A stretch of 64,000 nt of DNA from Candidatus Methylacidiphilales bacterium (GTDB lineage: Bacteria; Verrucomicrobiota; Verrucomicrobiia; Methylacidiphilales; JAAUTS01), in assembly GCA_028713655.1 (NCBI GenBank), contig JAQTNW010000011.1, positions 1 to 64,000 of the forward strand. Reading direction: 5' to 3'. Under the pieces are notes generated by a model that was not told the origin of the DNA, made no database searches, and worked only from the letters and a program-made list of their open reading frames with translations. Shown in pieces: positions 36,093 to 55,120 of the stretch. A program made the position numbers and the translations under genes. Numbering within the stretch: position 1 is the stretch's first letter; the number at the start of each line of letters is the position of its first letter.

Positions 36093-36128
36093 ACAAAAGA
36101 TTGCACTTTTTGTAATCTTTTGTAGAGT
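36093..36128 (+). promoter_or_regulatory. Promoter and palindromic operator of the AbiE operon
   Basis: Perfect 10-bp inverted repeat ACAAAAGATT (36093-36102) / AATCTTTTGT (36114-36123), centred 28 bp before the abiEi start. It covers a -35-like TTGCAC (36101-36106) and runs into a -10-like TAGAGT (36123-36128, 16-nt spacer). AbiEi antitoxins are known to bind inverted repeats in their own promoter, so autorepression is expected. Confidence 0.7.
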
Positions 36129-36135
36129 CTTAAGA

Positions 36136-36678: not shown

Positions 36679-37531
36679 TCGGCTGGTGGATGAGGCCCTC
36701 AAGGTCCAACCCAATTTGGCCACGCTCAGGCCGGTTGTGGAAAAGGAGCTTTTGCATCACGACATCCTGCGTGAGATGAGTGCCGCGGGTCTGTTGTCCA
36801 GGTTGACATTCATCGGCGGCACCTGCCTGCGGGCTTGTTATGGTTCTGTGCGTTTGAGCGAGGATCTTGACTTTACGGGCGGGAGTCATTTCAAGCGCAG
36901 TGATCTTTCCGAACTCGGTCGGATTCTGGCGGGGAATCTCAAGAGTCGTTACGGCCTTCGAGTGAGCGTCAGCGACCCTGTTAAGGAAGAAGGGACGGTG
37001 GCAACCTGGAAGCTGAGCGTTGAGACACGTCCCGAGGGAAAACATCTTCCACAGCAACGCATTCACATCGATATATGCGCCATTCCCAGTCATGACTCAC
37101 GTCCGATGATGCTGCGCAATATTTATGGCGTTGATATGGGCACCTCCGGCCTCATCATTCAGGCTCAGAGCCGGGAGGAAATTCTGGCCGACAAGATCAT
37201 TGCGCTCGCCTTTCGGGCGAACCGGCTCAAAAACCGGGACCTCTGGGATATTGCGTGGCTCAAGCAACAGGGCGTTGAATTGCCTGTGTCTTTAATCCCT
37301 TTAAAAATTCACGACCACCGACGCAAGCCTGCGGAGTTTGTTTCCCTGCTGCGGGGACGTCTGGCGGATTTTAAGAAAAAGTCTGAGATGAGAAGCGACT
37401 TCATGAAGGAGATGCAGCGGTTTTTACCCGCAACAATGGTTGCTGAAACTCTCGAAAAGGCTTCCTACTGGCAATATCTCACGCAACTCCTTGAGGAAGA
37501 ATGCGCCAAGGCAACGGCAGGGCTTTCGTGA
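36665..37531 (+). CDS. abiEii: AbiEii/AbiGii-type nucleotidyltransferase toxin
   Basis: 288 aa. The DNA polymerase-beta-like motif is FIGGTCLRACYG followed by VRLSEDLDF, with the two metal-binding Asp (D67, D69). A later DKIIALAFRANRLKNRDLWDIAWL matches the conserved AbiEii helix. Relatives (MenT) add nucleotides to tRNA and arrest growth, giving phage-abortive infection or element stabilisation. Translationally coupled to abiEi. Confidence 0.9.
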   Translation: MSLFDRLVDEALKVQPNLATLRPVVEKELLHHDILREMSAAGLLSRLTFIGGTCLRACYGSVRLSEDLDFTGGSHFKRSDLSELGRILAGNLKSRYGLRVSVSDPVKEEGTVATWKLSVETRPEGKHLPQQRIHIDICAIPSHDSRPMMLRNIYGVDMGTSGLIIQAQSREEILADKIIALAFRANRLKNRDLWDIAWLKQQGVELPVSLIPLKIHDHRRKPAEFVSLLRGRLADFKKKSEMRSDFMKEMQRFLPATMVAETLEKASYWQYLTQLLEEECAKATAGLS

Positions 37532-37628
37532 TTTTGCCATCAGCCAGCATCTCCCTACACACCATTAAAACCGCGTAGTATGCGGGGGCCGGTCTGAATT
37601 TTTTACTCGAGATCAAAAAGATGGGTTA

Positions 37629-40600: not shown

Positions 40601-40721
40601 CCAGATATCCCTCCCAAGCATCTTTGGTGTCGCCACCAAAGTGCTGCACAATGGAACAAGGACTGTGAACGTGCAGATCCCACTTTTTCCACGTTGATCC
40701 GACAAGCATGTTGTTGCTCAT
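37629..40721 (-). CDS. PHP-domain/SMC-like ATPase (TrlF-like)
   Basis: 1030 aa. An N-terminal PHP phosphoesterase-type region (WDLHVHSPCS, residues 14-23; INDYIFIEGY; DCSDAHAL about 272-279) is fused to an ABC/SMC-type ATPase. Walker A is IIGNKGSGKSALAD (366-379), a coiled-coil middle spans about 480-820, an ABC signature-like LSPGERGLLLLVFYLLL comes next, and Walker B is PLVIDQPEENLDN near residue 960. The architecture is that annotated as TrlF-like and seen around defence genes; a nuclease sensing foreign DNA or RNA is plausible. Last gene of the minus-strand defence operon, 33 nt after Mod. Convergent with abiEii. Confidence 0.8.
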   Translation of the reverse strand: MSNNMLVGSTWKKWDLHVHSPCSIVQHFGGDTKDAWEGYLDDLEKLPSEFKVIGINDYIFIEGYERVRKAKREEGRLQNIDLILPVVEFRLNKFAGVVKKDEHGKYSQSDWNRINLHVIFDELDPEIIRQQFLNALAPSYDLIPDSTHLKGKWQAVITRDSLKQLGQMIIDAAPADKKAAYGTPLEEGFNNLCVSLESIKEALNKHPLANRYLLAAGKTEWDNMKWDDQSIAEKRNVINCVDLVFTAATNPESYKAAKKRLLESNVKSTLLDCSDAHALSVSENKDRIGNCFTWIKADSTFEGLRQAVTEFDQRVFVGDIPDKCKLVSRNRTKYASNITIKKNAGSTLTETWFDVNLPLNHDLIAIIGNKGSGKSALADVVALAGNTKNHEKFSFLTQDRFRDPKSKLAAHFIGTLEWRDGTDSSRELHQNPATSDVERVKYLPQSYLETLCNELGGGGSSTFDSELRKIIYTHVPEEERLDFLSLDDLLNFKVAEIETERGQVTQQLSKLNEEISTIEKMLAPDSRLSLETRLDSKRKELQALENARPVTVDDPTAYDAAMVEAAAATAQLQELEAQLKAIRVEEQAVRDKKASAIKRAALVNRAVQSLRNHEKAHEQFLEGLSTILIEIDSNLLIHDVVSLQVNTEKLDAIGVAMRVEIETQDKILNSLDMTSVTRRREAVDAEINAIKGRLGEKQRLFVVYQEQLLQWERAKAELLGPKEKAHSIAWFDAEIQELARLPEKRNQLRQSRDATVRRLHEQIGKTVSEYKRLYEPVQAFVRSAANMEMPLPLAFNVRIAEEGFQENFLSQINRQTRGSFSGVDESNQLIHGILLETDFADPEAIVQFVNRIDDMLHVDRRDGSTENDMQPGDQLRKGIGLKDLYDFIFGLSYLQPRYSLTYGEQEIGRLSPGERGLLLLVFYLLLDNDDIPLVIDQPEENLDNQTIYKILVTCIKVAKQRRQVIMVTHNPNLAVVCDAEQIICASCDKTNSMFGYTSGAIESPEIKARVVEILEGTEPAFVNRKRKYGF

Positions 40722-40754
40722 TTTTTGCTTCGAGGTAACGAGTTTCTTGTCAGC

Positions 40755-43532
40755 TTATACCTTAAATACTTTCATCACCTCGTCGCCTAGATGGTTGATA
40801 ACTTTGACGGCAATACGATTGGACTTGGGTTTGGCGAAGGGGCGGGAGGTGTCACTGTTCAGTGTGGCCCAGGCTTCGGGGTTGATTTCAGCTTTCAAGG
40901 TCGTTTTAAGAGCGCTGTAGGGATCGTTTTGGCCGAGGAAATAGGCGTGCCGGACGAAGAAGCTTTCTTCGTTGTAGTCAGTATCGATAAACCAGCAGGC
41001 AATGCCGTCTGCGCCGTCGCTGCGGACTTCCCCGGTTGAGGGATCAAACACATCCACGCCGTTCACTTTGACCCGGAGCTTGCCATCTTTCTCGGGCAGG
41101 ATGGCAATGTCCGGCTCACCGAAGATGACGAAGAGGTTGCCTTTACCGGTAGCCTTGAGGTTAGCCGCCATGTGGAGGTCTGCGTTCATTCGGGCTTTGA
41201 GAACAGGAATACGGCCAAGTTTGTTGAATTCTGTCGTGTGGGCCTCAAAGTTAAAGGCGCAGGTAATGAGGACATCGAAATTGGCATCGGCAGCCTCACG
41301 GGCGGCAGCGACCAAGTCCTGGCGTTGTACAGTGCCAAACTCGGGGCCGATGAAGATAGCGGCTCGCTTTTCGCTGCCAACCTCCTGGAATCGACCTTCA
41401 GCGCACACAAGGTCGCCAGGCCACGGAATCAGTGCTGTGAAGGAAATGCGGTCTTCCTTATGGGCCTGTTGCACTCCGGCGGTTTTGAGATTCTCCAAAA
41501 TCATGGATGGGAAATCCTGCTTCTTGCCGAAGACAGCGGCATCTTCTTTGACTTTGGGATCTATGAGATCACCGTCTTCATCCACACCCAACATGCGGTG
41601 GGGACTGAGACTTTCCACGGTGAAGGGACCGGCCACGCGGATCTTCTTCTTGTCGTCGTAGGGCTTGTCGTAGAGGTATTCAAACTCAGCCTTGGCGGCG
41701 ATGGACTTGTCGATTTCATGTTGGCGAGCGATGCGGGCTTCCCACCAAGCAACGTGAAGTTTCTTGGCTTCGTCAGACCATTTGGCATCGGCCTCGCGGG
41801 GAATTTCCCACTCCTGCCAATTTTTCTTCAACGTGGTGTTCAGCTTTTCGCGCAAGGGTTCCAGCTTCGTTTGCCATTGGTCCCAGATGACATCAATCTC
41901 CGCATTATTTGCGATTGACTTGAGCGTGATGTGCGGCACTCGCTCATAAACGAAACCGTGGCGGATATTCCCCTGCACCGGCTGCGAACTCGGCGCGGTG
42001 CGGGTGACTTCGGCTTCCTTGATCTGGCCATCACGAGAATCGGCCAGCAAATAAAAGGGATAGCGTGCGCCCATGATGCGGGCGCGGGCCAGAGCCAGCG
42101 CCACACGGGAGGTGTCAATCGTAATCCAACGACGACCCCATTGTTCGGCGACGGCGGCAGTGGTGCCAGAACCGCAGGTCGGGTCGAGGACAAGGTCGCC
42201 GGAGTCGGTGGCCATCTGAATGCAACGCTCAACAACCGACGGTGCGGTCTGGACGACATAGAGCAACCCAGTGCCCATCTGCAAAGACTCCCATCGATCA
42301 GTGATCGGAAGGACGGAAAAGTCGTCGATGAATCGCTTGTAGCGAACGGTCGAGGGGCCTGCTGCTACGCGGCCTGCTTTGCCCAGCTTCTCAAGGCCAA
42401 ACAGCGTTGTCTTCCAATGACTGGACAGTCCAGGGCGAAAATCTCTGCCCTCGAATTTGAAAACCTGTTCTGTCGAAGCGAGGCCGGAACTGATGAGGCT
42501 TGTGTGTTGGAAGATGCGTCCATCGGGAAGCGTGACTTGCCGCTCAAGTTCTTCACGTTTCAATCGGCGCTCGGTTCCGTCGGTCAGTTCGATTTGATCG
42601 TATCGATCCGATGACACATGACCGACGACTCTTTCATTGTAGATCTGCCGGTATTTGACGACGGATTTTGATTTTGCGAACCAGAGAATGAAATCGACCG
42701 TGTTCGCCAAAAGCGTCCCAGCTTGGCTTCCAGTTTTTTGGACTTGGATGATTGAGCAGAAATTGTCCTCCCCGAACACCTCATCCATCAACGCCCGGAC
42801 GCGGTGAACATTTTCATCGCCGATCTGCACGAAGATAGAGCCGGAATCGGTGAGGAGATCGCGGGCGACGGTGAGCCGATCCCGCAGGTATGTGAGGTAG
42901 CTGTGGATACCGTCGCGCCAGGTGTCGCGGAAGGCTTTGACCTGCTCCGGCTCGCGAGTGATGTGGTCGGCCTTCCCGTCCTTCACATCGCGGCTGGTGG
43001 TGGACCACTGGAAGTTGCTGTTGAACTTGATGCCGTAGGGCGGATCGAAGTAGATGCACTGCACCTTGCCACGCAATCCCTCGCGTTCGGCCAAACTGGC
43101 CATAACCTGGAGGGAATCGCCCAGGATCATGCGGTTGGACCAGTTCTGGTCGTGCTGGTAAAACTCGGTCTTATCGACTCCCTTTGGAATACCGTTGAAA
43201 TCGGCAAACAAATCGGGTGTGAGGGTTCCAGCCTCGTGCTCCGATTCCTTGGAGGTTCGGAGGATGTCGTCGATCAGTACCTTGGGATGAACTTTTTCCT
43301 GGATATAAACAGGCGGGGCGTGTACGACGAGATCACTCCAGTCTTGTTCATCCTTCCCCCGCCAGACGAGCTGGGGATCGAGGTCAGTGTTGCGGGGATA
43401 CTTGATTTGGAGCGGTGCGGCCTGTTCCTTCTGGATCATGGCCTGGTATTCGGCGGTGGGGATGTTCTTCCGTTTATCACTCTCATGCTTGAGAGCTTCA
43501 ACGGTTTTCAGGCTGGAGGGTTTCTTGGCCAT
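40755..43532 (-). CDS. Type III-like DNA methyltransferase (Mod), beta-class N6-adenine
   Basis: 925 aa. Catalytic DPPY (163-166, CIYFDPPYGIKF) precedes the SAM-binding motif DPTCGSGTTAAVA (450-462), the beta-class order used by type III Mod proteins. Between them lies the target-recognition region. The C-terminal 400 residues are longer than in a classical Mod (about 650). It would modify adenine in the host recognition site. In classical type III systems mod and res adjoin; here four genes separate them within one operon. 19 nt after the KGGVGR ATPase gene. Confidence 0.87.
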   Translation of the reverse strand: MAKKPSSLKTVEALKHESDKRKNIPTAEYQAMIQKEQAAPLQIKYPRNTDLDPQLVWRGKDEQDWSDLVVHAPPVYIQEKVHPKVLIDDILRTSKESEHEAGTLTPDLFADFNGIPKGVDKTEFYQHDQNWSNRMILGDSLQVMASLAEREGLRGKVQCIYFDPPYGIKFNSNFQWSTTSRDVKDGKADHITREPEQVKAFRDTWRDGIHSYLTYLRDRLTVARDLLTDSGSIFVQIGDENVHRVRALMDEVFGEDNFCSIIQVQKTGSQAGTLLANTVDFILWFAKSKSVVKYRQIYNERVVGHVSSDRYDQIELTDGTERRLKREELERQVTLPDGRIFQHTSLISSGLASTEQVFKFEGRDFRPGLSSHWKTTLFGLEKLGKAGRVAAGPSTVRYKRFIDDFSVLPITDRWESLQMGTGLLYVVQTAPSVVERCIQMATDSGDLVLDPTCGSGTTAAVAEQWGRRWITIDTSRVALALARARIMGARYPFYLLADSRDGQIKEAEVTRTAPSSQPVQGNIRHGFVYERVPHITLKSIANNAEIDVIWDQWQTKLEPLREKLNTTLKKNWQEWEIPREADAKWSDEAKKLHVAWWEARIARQHEIDKSIAAKAEFEYLYDKPYDDKKKIRVAGPFTVESLSPHRMLGVDEDGDLIDPKVKEDAAVFGKKQDFPSMILENLKTAGVQQAHKEDRISFTALIPWPGDLVCAEGRFQEVGSEKRAAIFIGPEFGTVQRQDLVAAAREAADANFDVLITCAFNFEAHTTEFNKLGRIPVLKARMNADLHMAANLKATGKGNLFVIFGEPDIAILPEKDGKLRVKVNGVDVFDPSTGEVRSDGADGIACWFIDTDYNEESFFVRHAYFLGQNDPYSALKTTLKAEINPEAWATLNSDTSRPFAKPKSNRIAVKVINHLGDEVMKVFKV

Positions 43533-43551
43533 GATGTATCAGGATTTGGGC

Positions 43552-45204
43552 TTAAGTCTTTGGGAGCTTCATGCCGTCCCATAGTTCACCACGGTCCAAT
43601 GCATCGAGCATTCGTTTGTTGTGATCCAGAAAAACTGATTTTGGATTAAACTGGTAATCAATAACACAAAAAATATCATCGATTTCACCAACCGACTCGG
43701 CAGCTTTTTGAGCTTTAATCAAAAGTTCATTAGCTTTTTGGAGTTGACCATGAAGCGCATAGGGGATGTGCATCGCCTGAAGTTGATTGGCCTGTGTTGG
43801 AGATGGAGCGCTACTGGCGGCTCCTGAATCCACGAAAACCCTAACGGTTTGAGACCAAGCCTCTTTGTCAACTTTTTGGGTCAAGCGGCGTTTGGATTCT
43901 GCCACATTAAAAAGACAAGGCAGGGAGTGAATTGTGACCGTTTTAGATTTAGAATTGGTCTCGTGAGCCCTGGAGAAAGCCACGGATGCCTCGGCGGCCT
44001 TGTTTAAAGCCATGTAGGTTTGACCCTTAACCAGCATGAGCATAACCAATCGTTCTCCACCCAATTGAACATGCTCTGGCTCAATGGCAGCAATTAGCTC
44101 AATGAGTTTCTGGTAGTTTTTCTTGGATTGTAGCTGGCCTTGTAAAAAATCAAATGCCGGTTTGTATGTAGGGTCCAGTTCGAGGCACTCCTCCGCAAAT
44201 TGGAGCGCTTTGTTGATTTCACGACGAGCCGCATACAGTCTGGACAATTGAAATTTTCCATCGGGCGATTGCTGGAATTCCCGTTCCAGAAGGGAAATTA
44301 ATCGATCAATACGTTCGTCGTTGGGGTTCTTGCAAGCCTCATCCACTTGCTCGGTCAAGAATTCGATACCGGTTCTATTGTATTGCGTGACCTTTTTGAT
44401 CAGAGTTTGGTAATCATCGATGATTTTCGGCCGAGGCTGCTCTTCCATCAGGACAAAGAGCTTTTCTTCCAGGGCGGCAGCGGAGTAATAACTAATGGTG
44501 GAATCAATGGGTTTTCCTAAAACTTTGCTGGCTTCTTGAAATCGACTGGCAATGAGAGGACTGGTATCCGCAGTAAGATTCGGCAGCGGAGTAGCCACGT
44601 AGCAAATTTGCGGGATACGCTCAGGATCAGCTTTCCCCAAGGCTTTGGCGACCGCCGCCGTGCCCTGCAGGTTTTGTTCATTTAGCGAAAAGAGCATGAC
44701 GACGAGGTTGGGGAATCCGAGGGTACAGATGCCCCCGACATCAGTCAGGCCGGTGCGGGAATCCACCAAGACGTAATCCGGTTGATAAGCCTGTTCGATG
44801 GCGGCTTTCCAGTTTTCAATGAAGGGCTGTCCGATACCGGACTCAAACAATTCAGACCAGGGTATATCTGAGCGTTTCCGGTTATAAGCAGAGTCTTTCT
44901 TGCCAGCCGGCATAACCCAGAGCTTGCCTCGGACATTTTTTTCCAATGTGCAGGGATAGACGTAGTCCTCGATTTTGGGTGCTTTGTGGGAGTGGATGAA
45001 TTGGGAGACATATTCAACTACGCCATCCTTGCCTTTCGTTTTCTCAAAGGCTTTGAAGCTATCCAGACCTGGAGCTTCCAGATCGAAATCGATCAAAACT
45101 ACGCGGCGGCCATTGCGAGCCAAGAGTGCGCCGATATTGGCCAAAGCCAGAGTGCGGCCAACCCCGCCTTTGTAGGAATAAAAGGTGATCCAATAACTCT
45201 TCAC
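43552..45204 (-). CDS. KGGVGR-variant ParA-like ATPase with TPR-like region
   Basis: 550 aa. N-terminal deviant Walker A FYSYKGGVGRTLALAN (about 8-23), where Arg replaces the usual Lys of KGGVGKT, then VVLIDFDLEAPGLDSF and DYVLVDSRTGLTDVGG (Walker A' and B). Residues from about 280 are helical and TPR-like (FQLSRLYAARREINKALQFAEECLELDPTYKPA). Such ATPases occur in defence islands with other effectors; a signal-relay or filament role is possible but unproven. Its ATG overlaps the MqsA-like gene stop by 4 nt. Confidence 0.8.
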   Translation of the reverse strand: MKSYWITFYSYKGGVGRTLALANIGALLARNGRRVVLIDFDLEAPGLDSFKAFEKTKGKDGVVEYVSQFIHSHKAPKIEDYVYPCTLEKNVRGKLWVMPAGKKDSAYNRKRSDIPWSELFESGIGQPFIENWKAAIEQAYQPDYVLVDSRTGLTDVGGICTLGFPNLVVMLFSLNEQNLQGTAAVAKALGKADPERIPQICYVATPLPNLTADTSPLIASRFQEASKVLGKPIDSTISYYSAAALEEKLFVLMEEQPRPKIIDDYQTLIKKVTQYNRTGIEFLTEQVDEACKNPNDERIDRLISLLEREFQQSPDGKFQLSRLYAARREINKALQFAEECLELDPTYKPAFDFLQGQLQSKKNYQKLIELIAAIEPEHVQLGGERLVMLMLVKGQTYMALNKAAEASVAFSRAHETNSKSKTVTIHSLPCLFNVAESKRRLTQKVDKEAWSQTVRVFVDSGAASSAPSPTQANQLQAMHIPYALHGQLQKANELLIKAQKAAESVGEIDDIFCVIDYQFNPKSVFLDHNKRMLDALDRGELWDGMKLPKT

Positions 45205-45776
45205 TTAGTATCTGTGTGCTCGAAGATGCGGGCCGGGTTGATGCGCCGATTCTGGAGTCCCGTATAAGTCCGTTCAAATCCGGGATTTTTTCTGGCCAGA
45301 TCCGGGAAGCTTTCCGCAAATGGAAGGTTCAGTTGCTTCCGAATCCGGTTTTTCTTTCTCCAACCGCGTTCCCGCAGCCAGTCGGCAGCTTCCTGGAATT
45401 CAGCCAAAATCCTGAGGTAGTAACCCATGGAACGGCTGGGAACTTGGATGCCATTTTCCCATCGGTGATAGGTTTTGCCTCCGAGTCCAAGCAAATCACT
45501 CATCTGGGTTTGATCCAGTTCCATGTTTTCACGAATATTCTCCAGTTCCCTGGGCGTCAGTTGCTCGTTTTGTGCGGCAACTGCTTCGTCAACCCGAACT
45601 GTTGAATCAGCAGGTAGGGCAACCTCCCCGCATTGGTCGCAGATTTCAACTGCCAGTTGGGGAATCGTGATTTCGATCCCATCCTGAACCGTGATTCTGT
45701 AATCCATGACTGTCGGCTCTAGTTTTCCCTTATTGCAGCAGGGACAGGTCAGAAGTGCTTGGGTTTCTTTTTTCAT
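45201..45776 (-). CDS. MqsA-like zinc-finger/HTH regulator
   Basis: 191 aa. Two CxxC pairs (CPCC near 10-13, CDQC near 46-49) make a YgiT-type zinc finger. They are followed by an Xre-like helix-turn-helix (LTPRELENIRENMELDQTQMSDLLGLGGKTYHRWENG) as in MqsA antitoxins. A C-terminal extension of about 55 residues is extra. It lies 3 nt after the 141-aa gene, the order (partner first, MqsA second) found in mqsRA, so it may control that partner and this operon. Confidence 0.78.
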   Translation of the reverse strand: MKKETQALLTCPCCNKGKLEPTVMDYRITVQDGIEITIPQLAVEICDQCGEVALPADSTVRVDEAVAAQNEQLTPRELENIRENMELDQTQMSDLLGLGGKTYHRWENGIQVPSRSMGYYLRILAEFQEAADWLRERGWRKKNRIRKQLNLPFAESFPDLARKNPGFERTYTGLQNRRINPARIFEHTDTK

Positions 45777-45779
45777 GGC

Positions 45780-46205
45780 TTATTTTGGCAGTCGGGTGCC
45801 GGTGGTGTGGTTGTGTGCATCACAGATAATAACGACTCGATTGTTCTCAAGGCGGATTTCCACATAGACATCGTCATCTTCATTTTCGGAAGCGGGGTCT
45901 AGTCGGACATTTGCCTGGTAAAATTGTTGATTCGGGGGCGGAGATTTGATGGGTTTTTCAAAAACGCGGTAACCTTTTGATAAGTGGTCGGAAATTGCGC
46001 CAATAAACCCTGCATGGGTCATTTCCCAAGGACCTGCCAAATATCTGCTGGCCTGGCTCATGATGGCGTAACGTTTATTTTCCAATGCCTCCGTAATCGA
46101 GGAAATCGCCGAAGCGTGTGCTTCTACGAGCTCACTTATGGGTACATATCGATACTTTAGCACGAGATGTCTAGAATAAAAGTGCTTAAAAGCACTCGGT
46201 TGCAT
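45780..46205 (-). CDS. Unknown 141-aa protein, possible toxin partner of the MqsA-like regulator
   Basis: 141 aa, mixed alpha/beta, no membrane segment. It ends with VYVEIRLENNRVVIICDAHNHTTGTRLPK-type strands (about 113-141). I do not recognise the family. It is not clearly MqsR (about 98 aa). Position, 3 nt before an MqsA-like gene inside a defence operon, makes a toxin or substrate-sensing partner the simplest guess. Confidence 0.55.
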   Translation of the reverse strand: MQPSAFKHFYSRHLVLKYRYVPISELVEAHASAISSITEALENKRYAIMSQASRYLAGPWEMTHAGFIGAISDHLSKGYRVFEKPIKSPPPNQQFYQANVRLDPASENEDDDVYVEIRLENNRVVIICDAHNHTTGTRLPK

Positions 46206-46264
46206 GGAATTTCGTATAACTGATTGAGAATGAATGGCTTATTAAGCATGGTATTTGAGACGGG

Positions 46265-46876
46265 TTAGCCGTCAAAAAGGTTGCAGCCGATGTGGCCAAC
46301 TTCAAGCGACTCGCCGCTGGAGTGGGCATGTTTGGAACAGAAGGACCATTTATGCACATGTTCAGCCGTATTTCCCTGTTGTTCGCAGGGTAATGCTTCA
46401 TCCATTTTCTGGCGCAGGTTCCGAATGAGGCCTGCTATGTTTTTCTTCTTAACATAAATGATCAACAGGCCACGGCCTTCACGTCCCGTGGAATAGCGCT
46501 CGATGAGCTGCCGCAAGCCTCCAATGTGGTATTCGTAGCCGTTGTAAATTTTAGCCTCCCCAAGCATTTTACGCACAGGTGTGCTTTCTAATAATTCGAT
46601 AGTTATATCGACATGCCCATTGGAGTTTTTCTCCTGGACAACATCCAGGCATGGCACTGCGATATATCCTGCGAGTACCGCTGTAAGTCCGTTTTCGTCC
46701 AAGTTCTCAAAATTTCTTTTGTTTTCTTCCAATCGAGCGACCGCAGGACCCATGATTTCATCAAAGGCTGTTTCAAATTCAGCATCGGTTGTTGCGGCAA
46801 GAAGATCAAGATAGCCCGGCGCTTTGCGGCGGATTCTTTCAATTAACAGCTCTGCGCTATTCGATAAAGCATTCAT
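46265..46876 (-). CDS. PD-(D/E)XK-type nuclease, small
   Basis: 203 aa from the ATG at 46876, which overlaps the Res stop as ATGA; an upstream start would extend into Res. The nuclease core is visible: ENG in helix 1 (61-63), HVDITIELLE (D90), GEAKI (E107, K109) and GLRQLIERYSTG (Q123), the Asp...ExK...Q pattern of restriction-endonuclease folds. The Cys/His-rich tail (about 165-203) may bind zinc. No close family name. Coupling to Res suggests it is part of the same restriction complex. Confidence 0.68.
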   Translation of the reverse strand: MNALSNSAELLIERIRRKAPGYLDLLAATTDAEFETAFDEIMGPAVARLEENKRNFENLDENGLTAVLAGYIAVPCLDVVQEKNSNGHVDITIELLESTPVRKMLGEAKIYNGYEYHIGGLRQLIERYSTGREGRGLLIIYVKKKNIAGLIRNLRQKMDEALPCEQQGNTAEHVHKWSFCSKHAHSSGESLEVGHIGCNLFDG

Positions 46877-49800
46877 GTCAGAAAATCCTTTCCATCGGCA
46901 GCACACCAACTCACCTCAATATTTCCAGCCCAGCGATGCCAGTCCTCATCAGACAGTGATTTTTCGCGCCACCAGGCACGAAGCTTGGCCATGAATTCAG
47001 GCACTGAGACTCGTTTATTGTTTCCGACTGTATGAAGCTCCATTCGTAACAGTCCGCGTGGAGGAGCGGACATCAGTCCGAGAGCCCCTAAAACGTCTTC
47101 ACTGCTGCACTGAAGTTGGAGAGCCACAGTGTCGATATCCGTAAGGGAAAGTTTTTGCCCGTGATTTTTGCTTAGACGTTGGCATAGTGCCTTGCTAATG
47201 TGGATGAACGGGTCGGCTCCGAGAAGGCGCATGGGAGGCAGATTGGGGTTAATTGCTTTCGATAGTGGTGCGGGCGCAAGATTGATTCCCTGGCCAGTTT
47301 TCGCGGCAACCATTGCATCGAAAGCACCTGCTAGTTTGGCGGCAAAATCAAATTCGATTTGATAAATCTCAGTGAATTCGGCAAAGGCCCAGCGTCCATA
47401 TTCCTTGAGGTGGTTGACGCCGGGAATCCAGTAGGCATCCATGGTGCTTTTCTTTTCCTTGGCGTCTTCCCGTCGATAACCTTTGATCTCAACGATGAGG
47501 TTCAGGGGATCGTTTTCACCCCGACCATCATCGATCTGGACGATAAAGTCAGGCCGGTATTTGCGAGTCTCGGAACCGTAGCGGTAGGGCACTTCCAAAC
47601 CAAGATTGTGATTCTTCACGTACGCCCTGACTTGCGGGTGGGATTCCGCAACCCGGCAGAATTCCGCTTCCCAATCGGAATCATACACCACCCAATTGAT
47701 ATGGCATTTGCGGGCATCTGTCTCCCAGAGTTCCGTGCGCGAGGTGTTAAAGCGGACATGGACCGTGGAGCCCGTCGGGTTGTAGGGGTCGAGCAGGGCT
47801 TTGATCGGGCGGGAGTCGGCGAATTTCAAGGTAATGGCGGCGGTAATTTTATTACAGGCCATATCAGCCAATTCCTGATACATGAGCTGAGCGGGATAGG
47901 TGCCGCCCTTGCAGACCAGATACTCGTCCAGCCATTCCTTGGTAATGCGTTTGAGCTGTCCAAAAAGATGGAGTTTGGGTTCTTCGCCAGGGTCGCGCCA
48001 TTTGGTATAAAGCAGTCTCTGGGTCAGATGGAAAAGAAGTGTAGGCGGGCGTATTTCGCCAAGATGCGCGACTGTAAGATCCACTCCCTCGCCGATGATG
48101 CCTTCGTTACGGTTCTTCGTGGGGCCGGTCAAATCGGGCGTTAGTTCCAGGACAGAATCTGGGGTGAATTGCGCTTCCAGACGTTCTTCGGGCAATTCTA
48201 TCCTATAACCTTCAACCCGAGGGAAACGAATTTCCAAGGCATCACGATCAGGACGGATTGCCTTAACTTGGACAGTGATGCGGGGTGGTTGCGGTGGCGC
48301 AATGACCGGCTTGGCGGTGAAATCAAATGGAATGCCGAAGACATCGGCATACTCGACGTTGAACAACCCTTCTTCATTAAGTTCGTAGGACTGGCGGCGA
48401 AGAGCACGGCCAATAACTTGCTCGCAGAGAAGCTGTGTGCCAAAAGCACGAATGCCCAGAACATGGGTGACTGTGTTGGCATCCCAGCCTTCAGTCAGCA
48501 TGGAGACGGAAACCACGCAGCGAATGGAACCGCCAAGCTGCCCCGGCTTGCCCACGGTGTTCATGACTTCCCGAAGCAATTCCTGGTCGGTAAATTTTTC
48601 CCCCGCTCGCGGGTCGCCTGTGCGCTCGACGATTTCACGGCGGAAACGTTCGATTTCGTCGGCTGCCATGCCTCGAAAGTTGTCGTCAAGCGCATCGCCT
48701 GATTCAAGTTGCTCACTGTCGATCAAAAGGGTGTTTGGCCGCGCAAGAGGATTTCCAGAGCTTTCGTCAAAGTTTCGGAAGAGCGCAAGGCGACCGTTCT
48801 CCAGAGTGCTGGAGCCATTTTCATTTTTACGATGGAAACCGGAGATATAATCGTAAACGAGTTTGGAAATAGCAGTGTTCTGGCAAACAATGATGAAGCA
48901 GGGCGGAACCTTGATTCCCTTCTCCTCCCATAATTTGAAAGTTTTATCGTAGTGCCCGTAGAGGGCTTGAAGAGCAGTCTGAAGACGCGCTGGCAGTTCG
49001 AGGGGGTCAAGCTCTGCTCCTGCTCCACGCCCTTTCTTGGGCATATCCTTGCGGATATTTTCCCAAAGATCGCGGAACATTGGCATTTCGTTGCCAGGTA
49101 TATTCTCGGCCACGGGAACGCGAGGCAGCTTCACGATGCCACATTCAATGGCGTCCATGAGTGAAAAATCGCTCATGGTCCATGGGAAAAGCGTACCTTC
49201 AGCATATCCGGAACCCCGGAGGAAAAACGGGGTGGCCGATAGGTCGATCACTTGCAAAATCCCCAGTTTTCGGTTGAGCGCCTCCAGTCCTGAAATCCAG
49301 AGCCGTGCGGCCTTGTTGGCTTCTTCCACCTCTTTCTTCTCATCCCCTTTCAGGTCTTCATCGTCCTGTTCTGAAGGTTTTTCGCGGTAGCAGTGGTGTG
49401 CTTCGTCATTGACTACGAGGATATTTTTTATGCCCATGAGGTCAGGCATGATCCTCTGTATCATCTGCCCCTCGGTCTCGAGGGTGTTGATTGGGTCCCC
49501 GGTCCGGCCTACGAGCAGAGATCGTCCGCCAGAAGAAATCTCCAATCGTTCACGGAGTTTGAATGAGTGGTAGTTGGTGATGACGATCTTGGCCCGATTT
49601 ACATCATCCAGCATGTCGCTTGGCACCAACTCTCGGCTTGCGTAATAGCTGTCTGGGTCGTTTGGTTGGAGGACTCGCAGCCGATCCTTGATCGTGAGAC
49701 CGGGCGCAATAACGAGGAAACCGCGGGTAAATTTATTGCTGGTGGGGCGGCGCACCGCGTTAATGGTTTGCCATGCGATGAGCATGGCCATTACCGTGGT

Positions 49801-50343
49801 TTTGCCCGCACCGGTGGCCAGTTTTAATGCAAAGCGCATCAATTCGGGATTGGCATCCTTATTGGCATTCGCCAGATGTTCCAGAATCCGGCTGCCGGCT
49901 TTGCCTGCCTGCGGAGCCACCTCCATCAGCCAAATGGCGGTTTCCACAGCTTCGATCTGACAAAAAAAGGGGCGAACCTCGCTGTACTTGTGCTGCCTCC
50001 AGTGTTGCAGGAGGCGGGTGGTCTCTGGAGTGACTTGCCATTGGCTGGGATTCGGAAGAGCACGCCATTGATCCACATGTTGACGAAGTTCATTGATGAT
50101 CGATGTGGGATCATACTGCTGCTCTTTGGTGGATAGCCCTTTGCCTTCATCAAAAACAATCTGCTGCTGATCGGTGGCTCCCTTACGCTTTTTTGGTTTG
50201 GGGATTGGGGTGATGAATTCCGCACGCCGACGCCGTTCAATAATTTGCTGGGTCGGCTGCCCGTGTTCATCAAGCTCCCAATGGCGAAGAGGCATCTCGT
50301 AAGGAGAGTTGAGAATGGGATGCTCAAAGAAAGGATTAGCCAT
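46873..50343 (-). CDS. Type III-like restriction helicase-nuclease (Res)
   Basis: 1156 aa SF2 helicase. Walker A LKLATGAGKTTVM (173-185), DEAH box VVNDEAHH (312-319), motif III DLSATPFF (about 373), and motif VI region EQVIGRALRRQSY. The C-terminal nuclease is RPDFIVQIDD...LIVEIKGYRRE (Asp...ExK). The N-terminus (FFEHPILNSPYEMPLRHWEL) is that of the group annotated BPTD_3080 restriction endonucleases. Cuts unmodified DNA after ATP-driven translocation or sliding, with Mod giving specificity. First gene of the operon. The 297 nt upstream, shared with the divergent primase-helicase gene, holds ATTACCCTCATG/ATTACCC repeats and an unused SD-like AAGGAGGT. Confidence 0.88.
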   Translation of the reverse strand: MANPFFEHPILNSPYEMPLRHWELDEHGQPTQQIIERRRRAEFITPIPKPKKRKGATDQQQIVFDEGKGLSTKEQQYDPTSIINELRQHVDQWRALPNPSQWQVTPETTRLLQHWRQHKYSEVRPFFCQIEAVETAIWLMEVAPQAGKAGSRILEHLANANKDANPELMRFALKLATGAGKTTVMAMLIAWQTINAVRRPTSNKFTRGFLVIAPGLTIKDRLRVLQPNDPDSYYASRELVPSDMLDDVNRAKIVITNYHSFKLRERLEISSGGRSLLVGRTGDPINTLETEGQMIQRIMPDLMGIKNILVVNDEAHHCYREKPSEQDDEDLKGDEKKEVEEANKAARLWISGLEALNRKLGILQVIDLSATPFFLRGSGYAEGTLFPWTMSDFSLMDAIECGIVKLPRVPVAENIPGNEMPMFRDLWENIRKDMPKKGRGAGAELDPLELPARLQTALQALYGHYDKTFKLWEEKGIKVPPCFIIVCQNTAISKLVYDYISGFHRKNENGSSTLENGRLALFRNFDESSGNPLARPNTLLIDSEQLESGDALDDNFRGMAADEIERFRREIVERTGDPRAGEKFTDQELLREVMNTVGKPGQLGGSIRCVVSVSMLTEGWDANTVTHVLGIRAFGTQLLCEQVIGRALRRQSYELNEEGLFNVEYADVFGIPFDFTAKPVIAPPQPPRITVQVKAIRPDRDALEIRFPRVEGYRIELPEERLEAQFTPDSVLELTPDLTGPTKNRNEGIIGEGVDLTVAHLGEIRPPTLLFHLTQRLLYTKWRDPGEEPKLHLFGQLKRITKEWLDEYLVCKGGTYPAQLMYQELADMACNKITAAITLKFADSRPIKALLDPYNPTGSTVHVRFNTSRTELWETDARKCHINWVVYDSDWEAEFCRVAESHPQVRAYVKNHNLGLEVPYRYGSETRKYRPDFIVQIDDGRGENDPLNLIVEIKGYRREDAKEKKSTMDAYWIPGVNHLKEYGRWAFAEFTEIYQIEFDFAAKLAGAFDAMVAAKTGQGINLAPAPLSKAINPNLPPMRLLGADPFIHISKALCQRLSKNHGQKLSLTDIDTVALQLQCSSEDVLGALGLMSAPPRGLLRMELHTVGNNKRVSVPEFMAKLRAWWREKSLSDEDWHRWAGNIEVSWCAADGKDFLT

Positions 50344-50640
50344 AGCAAAGTCAGATCAACTGATTACGAGTATGAAGAATGTAGTCGGAATGCACTCTTT
50401 ATTACCAGTTAAAAAGGCCATCATGGTTGAGTCGATCCATGAGCCGGATCACGCATTACCCTCATGATTACCCTTATAAGGAGGTATTACCTTTTTTCGT
50501 CCACCGATAAGAGTGGCTGGCCAAAGAGAGAACGGACCTTGAGATGGACAGTCTAATGGGGCTAGCTACAAAAGAATCAGAAACTTGGTTATGGTAATGC
50601 GCCCCTATCTGGAAATAGTTTCGACTTCATGAGTTAAACC

Positions 50641-53046
50641 ATGAATGCGGATGGGGAACTACAGCGAAAATTGGCCAACGCCCTGGCTGAAATTGAGCTG
50701 TTGAAATCGGAAAATACCCGGTTGGGCAAATTGCTGGAGCCGCAATCTGCGTATCCGAGGCTTAAACTCGATTCGACTATCAAAACACGGCCTTCCATCC
50801 ATGCCAAATCTGGAACAGAGGAGAAAATTCACCTCTTCCGCAGCTTGTTTCACGGGCGTGAAGACGTCTATGCCCTGCGCTGGGAAGGCAAAAATGGGAA
50901 ATCGGGATACTCGCCCGCATGTGTCAGAGATTCGGCATATTTTCATATCTCCAAAGCAGAAGCCAAAGCGCAGCGCCAACTCTTGCCACTGACGGATCAG
51001 GTCATTCATGGCCATCTCAGTGGAAAATGGACGGTCGGAATCTATCCGTTGCTTCAAGATGAACGGTGTTGGTTTTTGGCTGCTGATTTTGACAAAGCGG
51101 CATGGCGGGAAGACGTTGCCGCTTATTTAAAAACCTGCTCTCAATGGGCAATCCCAGCTTGCCTGGAACGCTCTCGTTCGGGTCAAGGGGCTCATGTTTG
51201 GATTTTTTTTGAAACACCTGTTGCCGCGAGTATTGCCCGCAAACTGGGTGCGGCAGTTCTCACCCACACGATGGAACACCGGCATGAAGTGGGTTTGGAT
51301 TCCTATGATCGTTTCTTTCCCAATCAAGACACCATGCCTCAGGGAGGTTTTGGCAATTTGATCGCTCTACCCCTGCAGCATATCCCCAGAAGCGTGGGTC
51401 ATAGCGTTTTTCTGTCGGAAGATTTCAAACCTCATCCGGATCAATGGGTCTTTCTGTCCTCCATCCAAAGAATGAGTGTCGAATATGTGGGGCAAATTGT
51501 CCAAGAAGCTGAAAAACGGGGAAATATTATCGGTGTGCGTCCGAGCTTTTGCGATGGAGACGAACAGGAAGATCCCTGGCTATTGCCTCCCTCGAAAAAG
51601 CAGAAGGAGAAGCCCATCTCGGAACCCCTGCCGAAAAAAGTCCATATTACATTGGGCAATTTGGTTTATATCGAAAAAGAGGGGGTTCCTTCTTCCATGT
51701 TGAATCGCCTGATGCGTCTGGCCGCTTTCCAGAATCCGGAATTTTATCGGGCCCAAGCGATGCGACTATCTACTTTTGATAAGCCGAGGGTCATATCTTG
51801 CTCTGAAGAATTCCCCCGACATCTGGGATTACCGCGTGGCTGCTTGCGTGAAGTAGTCGAACTTTTGGAAGCGCACAAGGTTGAAGTCGAATTGAAGGAT
51901 GAAAGATTCTTGGGACAGCCTGTCGATGTGTCATTTCACGGCAGTCTCAGGCCCGAGCAACAGAAAGCTGCGGATGCATTGTTGGTGCACGACATCGGAA
52001 TCCTTTCCGCCACTACTGCTTTTGGGAAAACAGTAGTGGCGGCCTGGATGATTGCAGCGCGAAAAACCAACACCTTGATTCTGGTGCATCGCAGGCAACT
52101 CATGGACCAATGGCGGGAGCGGCTTTCAGTATTTTTGGATTTACCCATCAAATTGATCGGCCAAGTCGGTGGAGGCCGCCGTAAAGCAAACGGGAATATT
52201 GACGTGGCAGTTATCCAAAGCTTGAACCACAAAAATGTGGTGAATGACATGGTGGCAAATTACGGGCAGGTCATAGTGGACGAATGCCACCATCTTTCTG
52301 CCTTCAGTTTTGAGCAAGTGTTACGCCAAGTCAAAGCCAAGTATGTGTTGGGGTTAACGGCAACACCCATGCGTAAAGACGGACATCATCCCATCATCAT
52401 GATGCAGTGCGGCCCTATTCGTCATCGGGTCGATGCCCGTATTGAGGCGGCAGCGAGACCATTCGAGCATATCGTTATACCGAAGTTGACGTATTTCAGA
52501 TTGCCCGAAGCGCCGGGCAGCAAAAAAGCCATTCACGAAATCTATGCGGCCTTGGTTCATGACGAGGCCCGAAACAGGATGATCCTAAATGACATTCGCG
52601 ATGCTTTGGATCGAGGGAGATCGCCCCTGCTGCTTACAGAACGCACAGAGCATCTCAAGTTTCTGGCTTCCCGGCTGGAAACCTTCACGCCCAATGTGAT
52701 CATTCTTCAAGGCGGCATGGGCGTAAAACAGCGCAAAGCCATGATGGAAAAGCTCAACGCAATTCCTCAGGGAGAAAAGCGCATACTGATGGCAACAGGC
52801 CGATATCTTGGGGAGGGATTTGATGATGCCCGGCTCGACACCCTGTTTTTGACCATGCCAATTTCCTGGAAAGGAACCCTGCAACAATATGTGGGGCGGT
52901 TGCATCGGCTTCACGATGAAAAGAAGGAAGTCGTGGTTTACGACTATGTGGACGGTTGCGTACCCATGCTCGCATCCATGTTCGACAAGCGAGTGCGCGG
53001 GTATGAGTCGGTCGGTTATAAGATCAACCAAGATTGTTTGCTTTAA
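50641..53046 (+). CDS. TOTE-type archaeo-eukaryotic primase fused to SF2 helicase
   Basis: 801 aa. A short N-terminal coiled coil (1-35) is followed by an AEP primase-like domain (about 60-260: CWFLAADFDKAAW with DFD at 149-151, RSGQGAHVWIFFE, GGFGNLIALPLQ). An SF2 helicase comes next (Walker A SATTAFGKTVVAAW about 456-469, DECH box VIVDECHHLSA about 543, LGLTATPMRKDG, QQYVGRLHRLH). This is the primase-helicase of TOTE conflict systems; on a mobile island it might equally initiate element replication. Divergent from res. Confidence 0.83.
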   Translation: MNADGELQRKLANALAEIELLKSENTRLGKLLEPQSAYPRLKLDSTIKTRPSIHAKSGTEEKIHLFRSLFHGREDVYALRWEGKNGKSGYSPACVRDSAYFHISKAEAKAQRQLLPLTDQVIHGHLSGKWTVGIYPLLQDERCWFLAADFDKAAWREDVAAYLKTCSQWAIPACLERSRSGQGAHVWIFFETPVAASIARKLGAAVLTHTMEHRHEVGLDSYDRFFPNQDTMPQGGFGNLIALPLQHIPRSVGHSVFLSEDFKPHPDQWVFLSSIQRMSVEYVGQIVQEAEKRGNIIGVRPSFCDGDEQEDPWLLPPSKKQKEKPISEPLPKKVHITLGNLVYIEKEGVPSSMLNRLMRLAAFQNPEFYRAQAMRLSTFDKPRVISCSEEFPRHLGLPRGCLREVVELLEAHKVEVELKDERFLGQPVDVSFHGSLRPEQQKAADALLVHDIGILSATTAFGKTVVAAWMIAARKTNTLILVHRRQLMDQWRERLSVFLDLPIKLIGQVGGGRRKANGNIDVAVIQSLNHKNVVNDMVANYGQVIVDECHHLSAFSFEQVLRQVKAKYVLGLTATPMRKDGHHPIIMMQCGPIRHRVDARIEAAARPFEHIVIPKLTYFRLPEAPGSKKAIHEIYAALVHDEARNRMILNDIRDALDRGRSPLLLTERTEHLKFLASRLETFTPNVIILQGGMGVKQRKAMMEKLNAIPQGEKRILMATGRYLGEGFDDARLDTLFLTMPISWKGTLQQYVGRLHRLHDEKKEVVVYDYVDGCVPMLASMFDKRVRGYESVGYKINQDCLL

Positions 53047-53213
53047 TATTCCATGCTTTTCTTTTTACTCCGTCAGATATCCACCAGATCAAACCCGCCC
53101 CGCTTCCCAAGGGCAAAAGCAGCCTTTTCTAAAGAGGTCAACGTCTAGCTACGGCTCTGTTAACCTATCGCTGCTCGCTATTGCTCCTTATTTTTTTGTG
53201 TTCAAGTATTGCC

Positions 53214-53432
53214 GTGAACGAAACCACCCCTTCCGTCCATGTCCTGCCCTTATCCGAACGAGTCGCGCTGACTCCGGCTGAATTCGCCGCATACTTTGGC
53301 CATGAACAGACTTGGGCCTACCGGCAAGTCTATGCAGGCAAAGTTAAAATCATCCCCGACATGGGCAAGATGATGATTCCAAGGGTTGAATTGGAACGGG
53401 TGCAGCAAGCCGCTGAAATTTACAAAGGCTGA
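53214..53432 (+). CDS. Excisionase-like MerR/HTH small protein
   Basis: 72 aa from the GTG at 53214, after a hydrophobic stretch that would be an unnatural N-terminus. Core LTPAEFAAYFGHEQTWAYRQVYAGKVKIIPDMGKMMIPRVELERV matches the excisionase/DNA-binding fold (helix-turn-helix, wing, then a helix). It lies between TOTE and the tRNA/integrase, where an Xis would be expected. It could instead be a plain regulator. Confidence 0.65.
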   Translation: MNETTPSVHVLPLSERVALTPAEFAAYFGHEQTWAYRQVYAGKVKIIPDMGKMMIPRVELERVQQAAEIYKG

Positions 53433-53440
53433 CAACAGTA

Positions 53441-53717
53441 TGGGCCCGCGGGGATTCGAACCCCGAACCAAGGGATTATGCTTTCCACTTCGGCTTTCGC
53501 CGCCGGACGTTTGGTCCGTTCGTGGTCTGGACTATGCCTTCGCCATTCCTTTCGGGGCAGGCGGTCGATTATAGTCTCTACACCTTTCCCGATTACTCGG
53601 GACTTGGCTCGGCGTTGGGAGGTTAAACCGTTCACCGAATTTACGACTGACTACTGCAACTTTTCAGCGGCAGCGACCCATTTGAGTCCCCTGCTCTAAC
53701 CATTGAGCTACAGGCCC
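53441..53717 (-). tRNA. Island-borne tRNA-Ile2(CAU) with group I intron
   Basis: Exons 53717-53685 (33 nt) and 53480-53441 (40 nt) form a complete 73-nt cloverleaf with anticodon CAU (53480-53478), no encoded CCA. Both exons are identical to the split host gene halves. G1-C72 pairing excludes initiator tRNA. C4-G69 and C5-G68 are the pairs that TilS uses to recognise tRNA-Ile2, and the anticodon arm resembles ileX more than elongator tRNA-Met, so AUA-reading tRNA-Ile2 with lysidine34 is the best reading. It lies on the integrase strand, 88 nt after it. A TAGACG...TACGCT promoter may end 11 nt upstream. Confidence 0.93.
53481..53684 (-). other. Group I self-splicing intron (204 nt) in the tRNA anticodon loop
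   Basis: Splice sites: 5' exon ends in U33 (53685), pairing GACU with the internal guide GGUC to give the required U.G wobble. The intron's last base is G (53481), the omega-G. P7 strands AGACTAT (53577-53571) and ATAGTCC (53535-53529), AACGCCGAGCCAAG and GGTGTAGAGACTA agree with my recall of the Azoarcus tRNA-Ile(CAU) IC3 intron (about 205 nt). A P9 hairpin (CGGAC/GTCCG) precedes the end. No homing endonuclease fits. Spliced exons restore CUCAUAA exactly. Confidence 0.92.
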
Positions 53718-53771
53718 TATTAGAAATAGCGTAGGGTTTTGATTAAGCTTCGTCTAGTAGGAAGCGTTCTT

Positions 53772-53792
53772 AAAAAAATGGAAAGAATCCAT
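53772..53792 (-). terminator. Weak terminator after the integrase
   Basis: Minus-strand ATGGA-TTCTT-TCCAT followed by seven T lies between the integrase stop and the tRNA. The five-bp stem is short, so some read-through into the tRNA gene is possible. Confidence 0.4.
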
Positions 53793-53805
53793 GCGTCAAC
53801 CCGGC

Positions 53806-54990
53806 TCAAGCGGTGGCTGGGAATGGAAAGGGCGTGATCTTGCCCTCCTCCACGTCAGGGTTAATGGCAAAGGAAACTTTCTGAGCCGACAGCTTGGAAT
53901 GCTCATCGCGAAGATGTCCATAGGTCTTCATGGCCAGCGCCCCGCCATCGAGATGGCCCATCCAGCGTGCCACAGTGGGAATATCCACACCGGATTCGAT
54001 GCAGACCGTGGCATAGAGATGCCGCAGATCGTGATGGGTGATCCTGGTCATTCCAATCTTCGCAGCGGCATGGGTCATCGCCCTCTGCGACTCACGGACT
54101 CGCAAAACACGGACAGTCAATGCCTCCCTCGCACGTTGTGAGCGCATTCGTTGTAGCAATTCCTTGGCGGCTGGAATCATAGGAACCCGGCGCGGCAACC
54201 CGTTTTTAGTTACCCGCAAATGGATGGTTTCTCCACAGAGATCAACATCCCGCCATTCAACGTGCGCGGCCTCGTTTTTTCGTGCTCCGGTATATGCGAG
54301 GAACTGCACATGATCCGCACAATCGCGGGAACACCAAGCCCCGGCACTGCGGATACGGGCGATAAAATCCTGGAATTGCCGCGAATTGGGAAGCGTCACC
54401 TGTTTGGGCCGAACCGTGCAACGACCCACATTCTGAGCGGGATTGTCTATCCGTACCTTGGCCTGGACGGCCTCCTCAAAGACATAACGCAAGGTGTCCA
54501 AAGTGGAATTGAACCGCGCGGGAGAAATCTGCATGCAATAGCGGTCACCCCAGCGCTCGCAATCAAGCGGGGTCACCTTTCGGACATCGAGGAAACGCAG
54601 CTCCGGCCAGCTTTTGAGAAGCGCTTTCAGTGTTTGCATCCGCATATGGCTAGTGGAGGGGCGGTTTCTGCTCCGGTTACGATTACCTCGCCCCCGGAAA
54701 CTCCATCCGGCTTGCACCTTTTCCTCAAAGAGCAAAACACAATCCCCGACTGTCATGCGTCCTTTGTCTGCGGCAGCCTTGGCTGCGGCACGGGCCGCCA
54801 GACCGCGTGCAACGTCATGAGCGCGTTCCTTGGCAACTTCCATCAGCGGAGTGCGAAGCGACATCCAAGTTTCGTGACCCTTGGAAAAAACGCGCATGTA
54901 AAGACGGCCTGACTTATGCCGATAAATACCTTGGACGCTGGTTGCCTCCCAGGTCTTCAGCTTGTGTGCTGTTATGCGCTCTACTTCCAT
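53806..54990 (-). CDS. Tyrosine recombinase (island integrase)
   Basis: 394 aa. The catalytic set is complete: R237 (YTGARKNEAAHVEW), K262, H320-x-x-R323 (HHDLRHLYA), H346 (WMGHLDGG) and Y357 (MKTYGHL). An N-terminal AP2/arm-binding-like segment (about 18-60) and a SAM-like core-binding domain (about 75-180) precede it, as in lambda-type integrases. It would join the 7-bp CTCATAA of attP with the tRNA anticodon loop. It lies at the island's right end, its start 3 bp inside the right arm-type sites. Confidence 0.93.
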   Translation of the reverse strand: MEVERITAHKLKTWEATSVQGIYRHKSGRLYMRVFSKGHETWMSLRTPLMEVAKERAHDVARGLAARAAAKAAADKGRMTVGDCVLLFEEKVQAGWSFRGRGNRNRSRNRPSTSHMRMQTLKALLKSWPELRFLDVRKVTPLDCERWGDRYCMQISPARFNSTLDTLRYVFEEAVQAKVRIDNPAQNVGRCTVRPKQVTLPNSRQFQDFIARIRSAGAWCSRDCADHVQFLAYTGARKNEAAHVEWRDVDLCGETIHLRVTKNGLPRRVPMIPAAKELLQRMRSQRAREALTVRVLRVRESQRAMTHAAAKIGMTRITHHDLRHLYATVCIESGVDIPTVARWMGHLDGGALAMKTYGHLRDEHSKLSAQKVSFAINPDVEEGKITPFPFPATA

Positions 54991-54991
54991 A

Positions 54992-55011
54992 ACCGTGAAT
55001 TATACCGTGAA
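54992..55011. promoter_or_regulatory. Right arm-type integrase sites (ACCGTGAA)
   Basis: Two direct ACCGTGAA copies 12 bp apart (54992-54999, 55004-55011), the same arrangement as at the left end, 68 bp from the core. They overlap the region before the integrase start, so integrase binding could also affect its own transcription. Confidence 0.68.
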
Positions 55012-55078
55012 ATTTTCCCCGGAATCCACCGGGCAACTCACTGGTATTAATTGGGTTATGGATAGTTAAGCACAGGCT

Positions 55079-55085
55079 CTCATAA
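55079..55085 (+). other. attR core, 7 bp
   Basis: CTCATAA, direct repeat of 31834-31840; bases outside (T before, T after) differ from the attL copy (A before, G after). Confidence 0.88.
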
Positions 55086-55120
55086 TCCCTTGGTTCGGGG
55101 TTCGAATCCCCGCGGGCCCA
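55079..55120 (+). pseudogene. 3' half of tRNA-Ile2(CAU), split by the island
   Basis: Anticodon loop CTCATAA, 3' stem TCCCT, variable loop, T arm (CGGGG TTCGAAT CCCCG) and acceptor CGGGCCC plus discriminator A. The upstream GGCT is island sequence and cannot restore the 5' parts. With 31803-31833 it completes the original gene. Confidence 0.93.

Follow-up and report, generated by a model that had tools for sequence, protein, structure and literature searches.

Group I introns in bacterial tRNA genes are usually regarded as neutral passengers. Tyrosine recombinases that integrate into tRNA genes usually use the 7-nt anticodon loop as their overlap (PMC8371274). In tRNA-dependent lysogeny, compensation for the tRNA that is disrupted on integration is already known (Guerrero-Bustamante and Hatfull 2024, PMC10865867). 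Here we describe a locus at which these features meet: an integrated island of 23,245 bp in a Candidatus Methylacidiphilales bacterium, which splits the host tRNA-Ile(CAU) gene and carries a second tRNA-Ile(CAU) gene interrupted by a group I intron. The stretch analyzed, hereafter the window, comprises positions 1 to 64,000 of contig JAQTNW010000011.1 (GenBank assembly GCA_028713655.1). We think it likely that the intron-bearing gene serves a tRNA-dependent integrative element as its rescue gene and that the intron shields this gene from the integrase.

The intron-bearing tRNA gene

The gene and its intron occupy the following positions in the window:

53441..53717, minus strand: putative rescue tRNA-Ile(CAU) gene; exons match the host halves with 100% identity; spliced form recognized by ARAGORN
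53481..53684, minus strand: group I intron of 204 nt at U33/C34; match to Rfam model RF00028, P1/P10 and covariation

The 5′ exon of 33 nt (53717-53685) closes with GGGGACU(33), and the 3′ exon of 40 nt (53480-53441) opens with C(34)AUAAUCCC. Excision of 53684..53481 yields GGGCCTGTAGCTCAATGGTTAGAGCAGGGGACTCATAATCCCTTGGTTCGGGGTTCGAATCCCCGCGGGCCC, which ARAGORN folds into a complete tRNA with the anticodon CAU. From known tRNA-Ile2 sequences we take this product to be tRNA-Ile(CAU) (tRNA-Ile2) rather than tRNA-Met; initiator and elongator tRNA-Met genes are present separately in the window's own genome, a metagenome-assembled genome (MAG) of 90 contigs that is 95% complete. The boundary was placed at U33/C34 because of P1, in which exon GACU pairs with GGUC with a U.G pair at the splice site, and P10, in which AUG pairs with the anticodon CAU. 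Both helices overruled the solution given by ARAGORN in intron mode, a tRNA-Leu with anticodon CAA and a different intron boundary. In intronless mode ARAGORN missed the gene, as did Rfam at gathering thresholds.

Ten homologous introns were found at exactly the same site, in G001, G147, L104, L113, L175 and five virus contigs, giving an alignment of 11 sequences with the window intron. In this alignment 94.2% of the cells of the P1-P10 structure are paired, against 29-43% when the structure is slid, a percentage biased towards the structure since it was drawn on the window sequence, itself in the alignment. Covariation is independent of this bias: 31 pairs are changed on both sides, whereas shuffling gives 20.3 on average and sliding the structure gives 8-12. 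Covarying pairs occur in P2, P3, P4, P6, P8 and P9, and P7 is invariant. Helices P3, P4, P5, P6, P7 and P8 are paired in 100% of cells, and the P3-P8/P4-P6 core is present. In all 11 sequences, P1 has its U.G pair at the 5′ splice site and a terminal G precedes C34; of the three pairs of P10, the inner one is well kept and the remaining two are formed in about 64% of the sequences. The minimum free energy of the window intron has a z-score of -2.6.

A preliminary description of this DNA, made from the letters alone, had recognized a CAU tRNA gene interrupted at U33/C34 by a 204-nt group I intron; its coordinates are exact, and the covarying alignment bears the proposal out. It had also named two outcomes that would speak against a group I intron. 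One of them, a fold lacking P3-P7, is not seen. The other, a model score below the group I threshold, does occur: a search of 2.3 kb with RF00028 gives 28.8 bits (E = 8e-5), and the gathering score is 50 bits, a detection cut-off rather than a structural feature. This shortfall counts against the assignment, but it is outweighed by the covariation, and the 204-nt insert is a group I intron. The same model also scores the tRNA-Leu intron of an Escherichia coli plasmid (see below) under threshold, at 36.6 bits. The window intron is predicted from its structure to self-splice, and it presumably belongs to subgroup IC3, judging by its core strings.

The split host gene and its counterparts elsewhere

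The boundaries of the island, its integrase and the candidate integrase sites are located as follows:

31803..31840, plus strand: 5′ half of the host tRNA-Ile(CAU) gene, left island boundary (BLAST query 1-38, 100%, E 2.3e-13)
55079..55120, plus strand: 3′ half of the host tRNA-Ile(CAU) gene, right island boundary (BLAST query 32-73, 100%, E 1.6e-15)
31841..55085: integrated island, 23,245 bp including one core copy, bounded by the two tRNA halves, which have the core in common
53806..54990, minus strand: tyrosine integrase, 394 amino acids (aa), showing the HxxR motif and the terminal Tyr motif (Pfam PF00589, E 3.8e-18)
31928..31986: left ACCGTGAA cluster, candidate arm-type integrase sites at 31928 (inverted), 31967 and 31979
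54992..55011, plus strand: right ACCGTGAA pair, candidate arm-type integrase sites at 54992 and 55004

The core CTCATAA, which constitutes the entire 7-nt anticodon loop, closes the 5′ half at 31834-31840 and opens the 3′ half at 55079-55085. Joined at this shared core, the halves form one intact 73-nt tRNA gene that ARAGORN reads as CAU; an insertion of 23,245 bp in the anticodon loop has therefore divided the host gene. The sequence of both ends restores tRNA-Ile(CAU) at neither island junction. The GC content is 51.6% within the island and 55-56% outside. The intron of the putative rescue copy sits within this same 7-bp recombination core. The earlier proposal that the intron resides on a mobile island is thus confirmed by a 23.2-kb integrase-bearing insert with the core at both ends. 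A plain direct-repeat island adjoining the intron-bearing gene was rejected, as the repeats there are inverted, and trans-splicing of the split halves was set aside, no supporting feature having been looked for or seen.

The integrase lies at the right end of the island, beside the intron-bearing tRNA gene. Its relatives abut tRNA genes, and none were found among the viral contigs or plasmids searched. In two other genomes (L212 in G036, L224 in G019), related integrases adjoin an intact tRNA-Met(CAU) gene with a CTCATAA loop, its 5′ end towards the integrase. Five ACCGTGAA sites fall within about 150 bp of the island ends, with one direct pair spaced by 12 bp at each end, and the 28 nt at 31964-31991 are repeated at 54989-55016 with 86% identity. 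This arrangement is the pattern expected for integrase arm sites, for which these positions are candidates; the motif also occurs near both ends of the related island in G243 described below.

The only high-identity tRNA-Ile matches in the window's genome are the two host halves and the intron-bearing copy. Among the 43 tRNA matches in this genome, the only CAU ones are initiator and elongator tRNA-Met, and a weak match (L244) gave no tRNA with ARAGORN. The intron-bearing gene is the only complete tRNA-Ile(CAU) found there. Since TilS is present and AUA codons are used in both host and island genes, tRNA-Ile(CAU) is expected to be needed. Because the island split the host gene, we read the intron-bearing copy as a replacement and not just as cargo.

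The same layout is seen in G147, a genome of the same class whose 6.1-Mb chromosome is closed. Here the 5′ half of tRNA-Ile(CAU) lies at 3319485 and the 3′ half at 3424005, with an intron-bearing tRNA-Ile(CAU) between them at 3356855-3357154, and no close tRNA-Ile match was found in this genome beyond the halves and that copy. The T arm and acceptor of the copy are unlike those of the host gene. The integrase against the 3′ half scores 26.2 bits with PF00589, just under the cut-off, and is 25% identical over 173 aa to the integrase of the window and 35% over 353 aa to that of G444, an Opitutaceae MAG. In G444 the 5′ half, the 3′ half and the intron-bearing copy are found on three contigs, and the integrase related to that of G147 adjoins the 3′ half. 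The integrase of G147 is unrelated to that of the window; thus, two integrase groups share the arrangement. A fragment comprising the first 22 nt of tRNA-Ile lies just upstream of the intron-bearing gene of G147 (L246:9710-9731, G147:C1:3356709-3356730), perhaps left by an earlier rearrangement.

These data bear on two alternatives. Misjoining of two genomes or loci during assembly is conceivable for a window taken from a 90-contig MAG; we consider it extremely improbable, as the boundaries fit the shared 7-bp core exactly, the integrase and the repeated arm-type sites are where they are expected, and the same layout exists on the closed G147 chromosome. Alternatively, the host could first have possessed two tRNA-Ile(CAU) genes, one with an intron, and the island could have hit the dispensable one. 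A chromosomal intron-bearing copy does exist in G001, and disruption would then have been harmless. This order of events is nonetheless very unlikely: the intron-bearing copy of the window lies inside the island, between the integrase and other genes, and that of G147 lies between the split halves and departs from the host gene in its T arm and acceptor.

An intronless counterpart occurs in G243, whose integrase is 44% identical to that of the window. Its tRNA-Ile(CAU) is split over two contigs (L290:4230-4660 in G243:C2; L251 in G243:C5), and a full tRNA-Ile(CAU) without an intron lies 0.3 kb inside the left end of the island. The anticodon stem of this copy is GGGCA/TGCCT, compared with GGGGA/TCCCT in the host gene, a paired change.

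The intron was found in 3 of 384 genomes of the class. Counted on intron-bearing genomes, the host gene is split in two of these three, plus G444. A genome-wide pattern scan (18 fixed bases, 257 Gb) returned 118 stretches, of which only L104, L113 and L175 are real; nearly all of the matches are attributed to chance, as 18 fixed bases over 257 Gb predict them. The three named homologues of the intron (L104, L113 and L175), from Verrucomicrobia/Opitutaceae MAGs, agree with the earlier label of a Verrucomicrobia-like genome. The suggestion that the island is a vehicle between phyla is not supported, the closest intron (87%, BLAST) being chromosomal, in the same family and with no visible integrase.

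Introns in tRNA genes were also observed in other mobile or viral DNA. In the five virus contigs (L186, L188, L192, L198 and L205), a group I intron interrupts the tRNA-Ile(CAU) gene at U33/C34; a 2014 review knew phage introns only in protein-coding genes (PMC3984707). At L316:1387-1684 on the E. coli plasmid NZ_CP023816.1, a group I intron of roughly 220 nt (RF00028, 36.6 bits) interrupts an unannotated tRNA-Leu(UAA) gene, which lies next to aac(3)-IId and a gene for an AAA ATPase. The core of this intron matches 1257 PLSDB plasmids from E. coli, Klebsiella, Salmonella and others, of which NZ_CP023816.1 is the one inspected. In a 595-kb uncultured phage (LR756511.1), a tRNA-type group I intron core follows a putative HNH endonuclease open reading frame (ORF) at L317:350-800.

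Rescue and candidate shielding of the element's tRNA

By sequence, the element sits in the anticodon loop of the one tRNA-Ile(CAU) gene found for the host and shares with that gene just the 7-bp CTCATAA. We propose that its own complete tRNA-Ile(CAU) replaces the disrupted host tRNA. The intron would splice itself out, leaving a normal tRNA-Ile2 for subsequent modification by TilS. In DNA, the intron would set the two core-binding arms 204 bp apart, so that the integrase would be unable to target the rescue gene. Without such a shield, a site resembling the bacterial attachment site (attB) would lie near the attachment site of the element (attP), which could lead to self-recombination or to the entry of further copies; the authors of the actinobacteriophage study suggest a plasmid-borne tRNA gene as a possible integration site for a second plasmid (PMC10865867). 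Judged from the anatomy, the rescue role is very probable, and the shielding role is moderately favored.

An independent case was found in Gordonia phage Daredevil (NC_048021.1). In a search of annotated phages, the window gene matched an unannotated stretch of this genome. A complete tRNA-Lys(UUU) interrupted by a 238-nt intron lies there at positions 41820-42131, and the integrase is 0.57 kb away. The attP of Daredevil includes CGGACTTTTAATCCGC, and the same 16 nt are present in the arm of the spliced tRNA-Lys(UUU). The related phages Mollymur and OneUp have rescue tRNAs at the position equivalent to that of the intron-bearing tRNA. The published text gives the Daredevil target as tRNA-Lys-TTT, not reconstructed and with no phage tRNA, and the figure legend gives tRNA-Ile2-CAT (PMC10865867). 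Our finding corrects this case: a rescue tRNA is present and is hidden by its intron. RF00028 did not detect the Daredevil intron. Its group I membership is indicated by a local match to the window gene (76% over 96 nt, E 7e-9) and by core strings visible in the sequence.

The anticodon arms of the rescue tRNAs allow a comparison. The intron-bearing copies of the window, G147 and G444, where a host copy is seen, keep the anticodon arm of the target, and the intronless rescue tRNAs of G243 and BrutonGaster have changed arms. The rescue tRNA of Mollymur departs from attP just beyond the core. This pattern, though not uniform, supports a shield.

The rescue could also operate without any shield, the intron being a passive passenger of a captured tRNA gene that already had one. 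A source for such a capture existed, as the same intron is found in the chromosomal tRNA-Ile(CAU) of G001, L104 and L113. Furthermore, the rescue tRNA of OneUp is intronless yet keeps the core and the flanking pair; a shield is therefore not always needed. Three observations make a passive passenger unlikely in our judgment. The intron is rare in the class, yet coincides with a split host gene in two of its three carriers there and in G444. Daredevil provides an independent case with another tRNA in another phylum. Finally, the target arm is kept in the intron-bearing copies and changed in two intronless ones.

Besides OneUp, several points weigh against a rescue gene shielded by its intron. 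The copy in G147 lies far inside 104 kb of sequence in which two or more elements may be combined, and in G444 the pieces lie on separate contigs, so that the rescue copy is not placed on an island. G001, G442 and G443 have an intron-bearing tRNA without visible split halves. In the window's own genome, it is possible that a further tRNA-Ile copy was missed by the incomplete MAG, and a simple promoter scan upstream of the intron-bearing gene gave no match. The clear plaques of Daredevil may mean that its intron-bearing tRNA is not working.

Whether integrative elements of several lineages use tRNA introns as a guard that hides the rescue tRNA from the integrase is, in our view, evenly balanced. 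If they do, elements that target anticodon loops would select for, keep and spread such introns, which would give some bacterial tRNA introns both a function and a dispersal route.

Comparison with described elements

The island carries the following further genes:

33351..36020, plus strand: MobF-type (TrwC) relaxase with helicase domain (PF08751, E 6.8e-71)
36665..37531, plus strand: AbiEii-type toxin gene (PF08843; PADLOC AbiEii, E 6.5e-104)
40755..43532, minus strand: Type III methyltransferase (PADLOC MTase_III, 1440 bits)
46873..50343, minus strand: large DEAD/ResIII-like protein, probable Type III restriction subunit (weak PADLOC REase_III match)
50641..53046, plus strand: TOTE-type primase-helicase (PF22548, E 2.4e-91)
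53181..53432, plus strand: small helix-turn-helix protein, possible excisionase (HTH_17, E 4e-5, under the Pfam cut-off)

A run of defense-type genes extends over 37629-50343 and comprises a PHP/AAA ATPase protein, the Type III methyltransferase, a ParA-TPR protein (PDC-M28B), an MqsA-like antitoxin and the large restriction-helicase.

With tRNA-dependent lysogeny, the island shares a tyrosine integrase, a short core in a host tRNA, the lack of reconstruction and an element-borne tRNA. The target is shared as well, tRNA-Ile2-CAT being that of OneUp and Mollymur (PMC10865867). In contrast, the described elements are actinobacteriophages whose rescue tRNAs are annotated as intronless, whereas the element described here is a mobilizable-type island with an intron within the core. 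The island works in the manner of tRNA-dependent lysogeny without being one of its phages: it has a MobF relaxase, and no phage structural genes were recognized among the island ORFs scanned. tRNA-dependent integration, described from actinobacteriophages, now takes in an island with a relaxase. The standard tRNA-gene genomic island restores the tRNA at one junction (Islander, PMC4383910), which the window island does not.

The intron itself resembles the IC3 introns of Azoarcus tRNA-Ile and cyanobacterial tRNA-Leu in being short and ORF-less, in its place in the anticodon loop and in its P3-P9 core. It differs in its location on an integrative element, in that element's own recombination core. 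There it could serve the element by separating the RNA function of the gene from its DNA role as a recombination target. Tools for tRNA detection that are blind to introns would overlook such genes, and the phenomenon may be under-counted.

In the open-licence papers searched, no intron in a rescue tRNA gene was found, and the idea of an intron as a shield against self-targeting appears to be new. The nearest precedents are archaeal. A tRNA intron is proposed there to block an attachment site, and mobile elements are held to be able to carry tRNA introns, as would be the case here (Randau and Soll, cited in PMC4390854; Sugahara et al. 2012, PMC3293823). These proposals concern host tRNA genes and bulge-helix-bulge (BHB) introns, whereas the present case concerns the putative rescue gene of an element, a group I intron and bacteria. 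The archaeal idea that tRNA introns block integration thereby becomes directly testable in bacteria.
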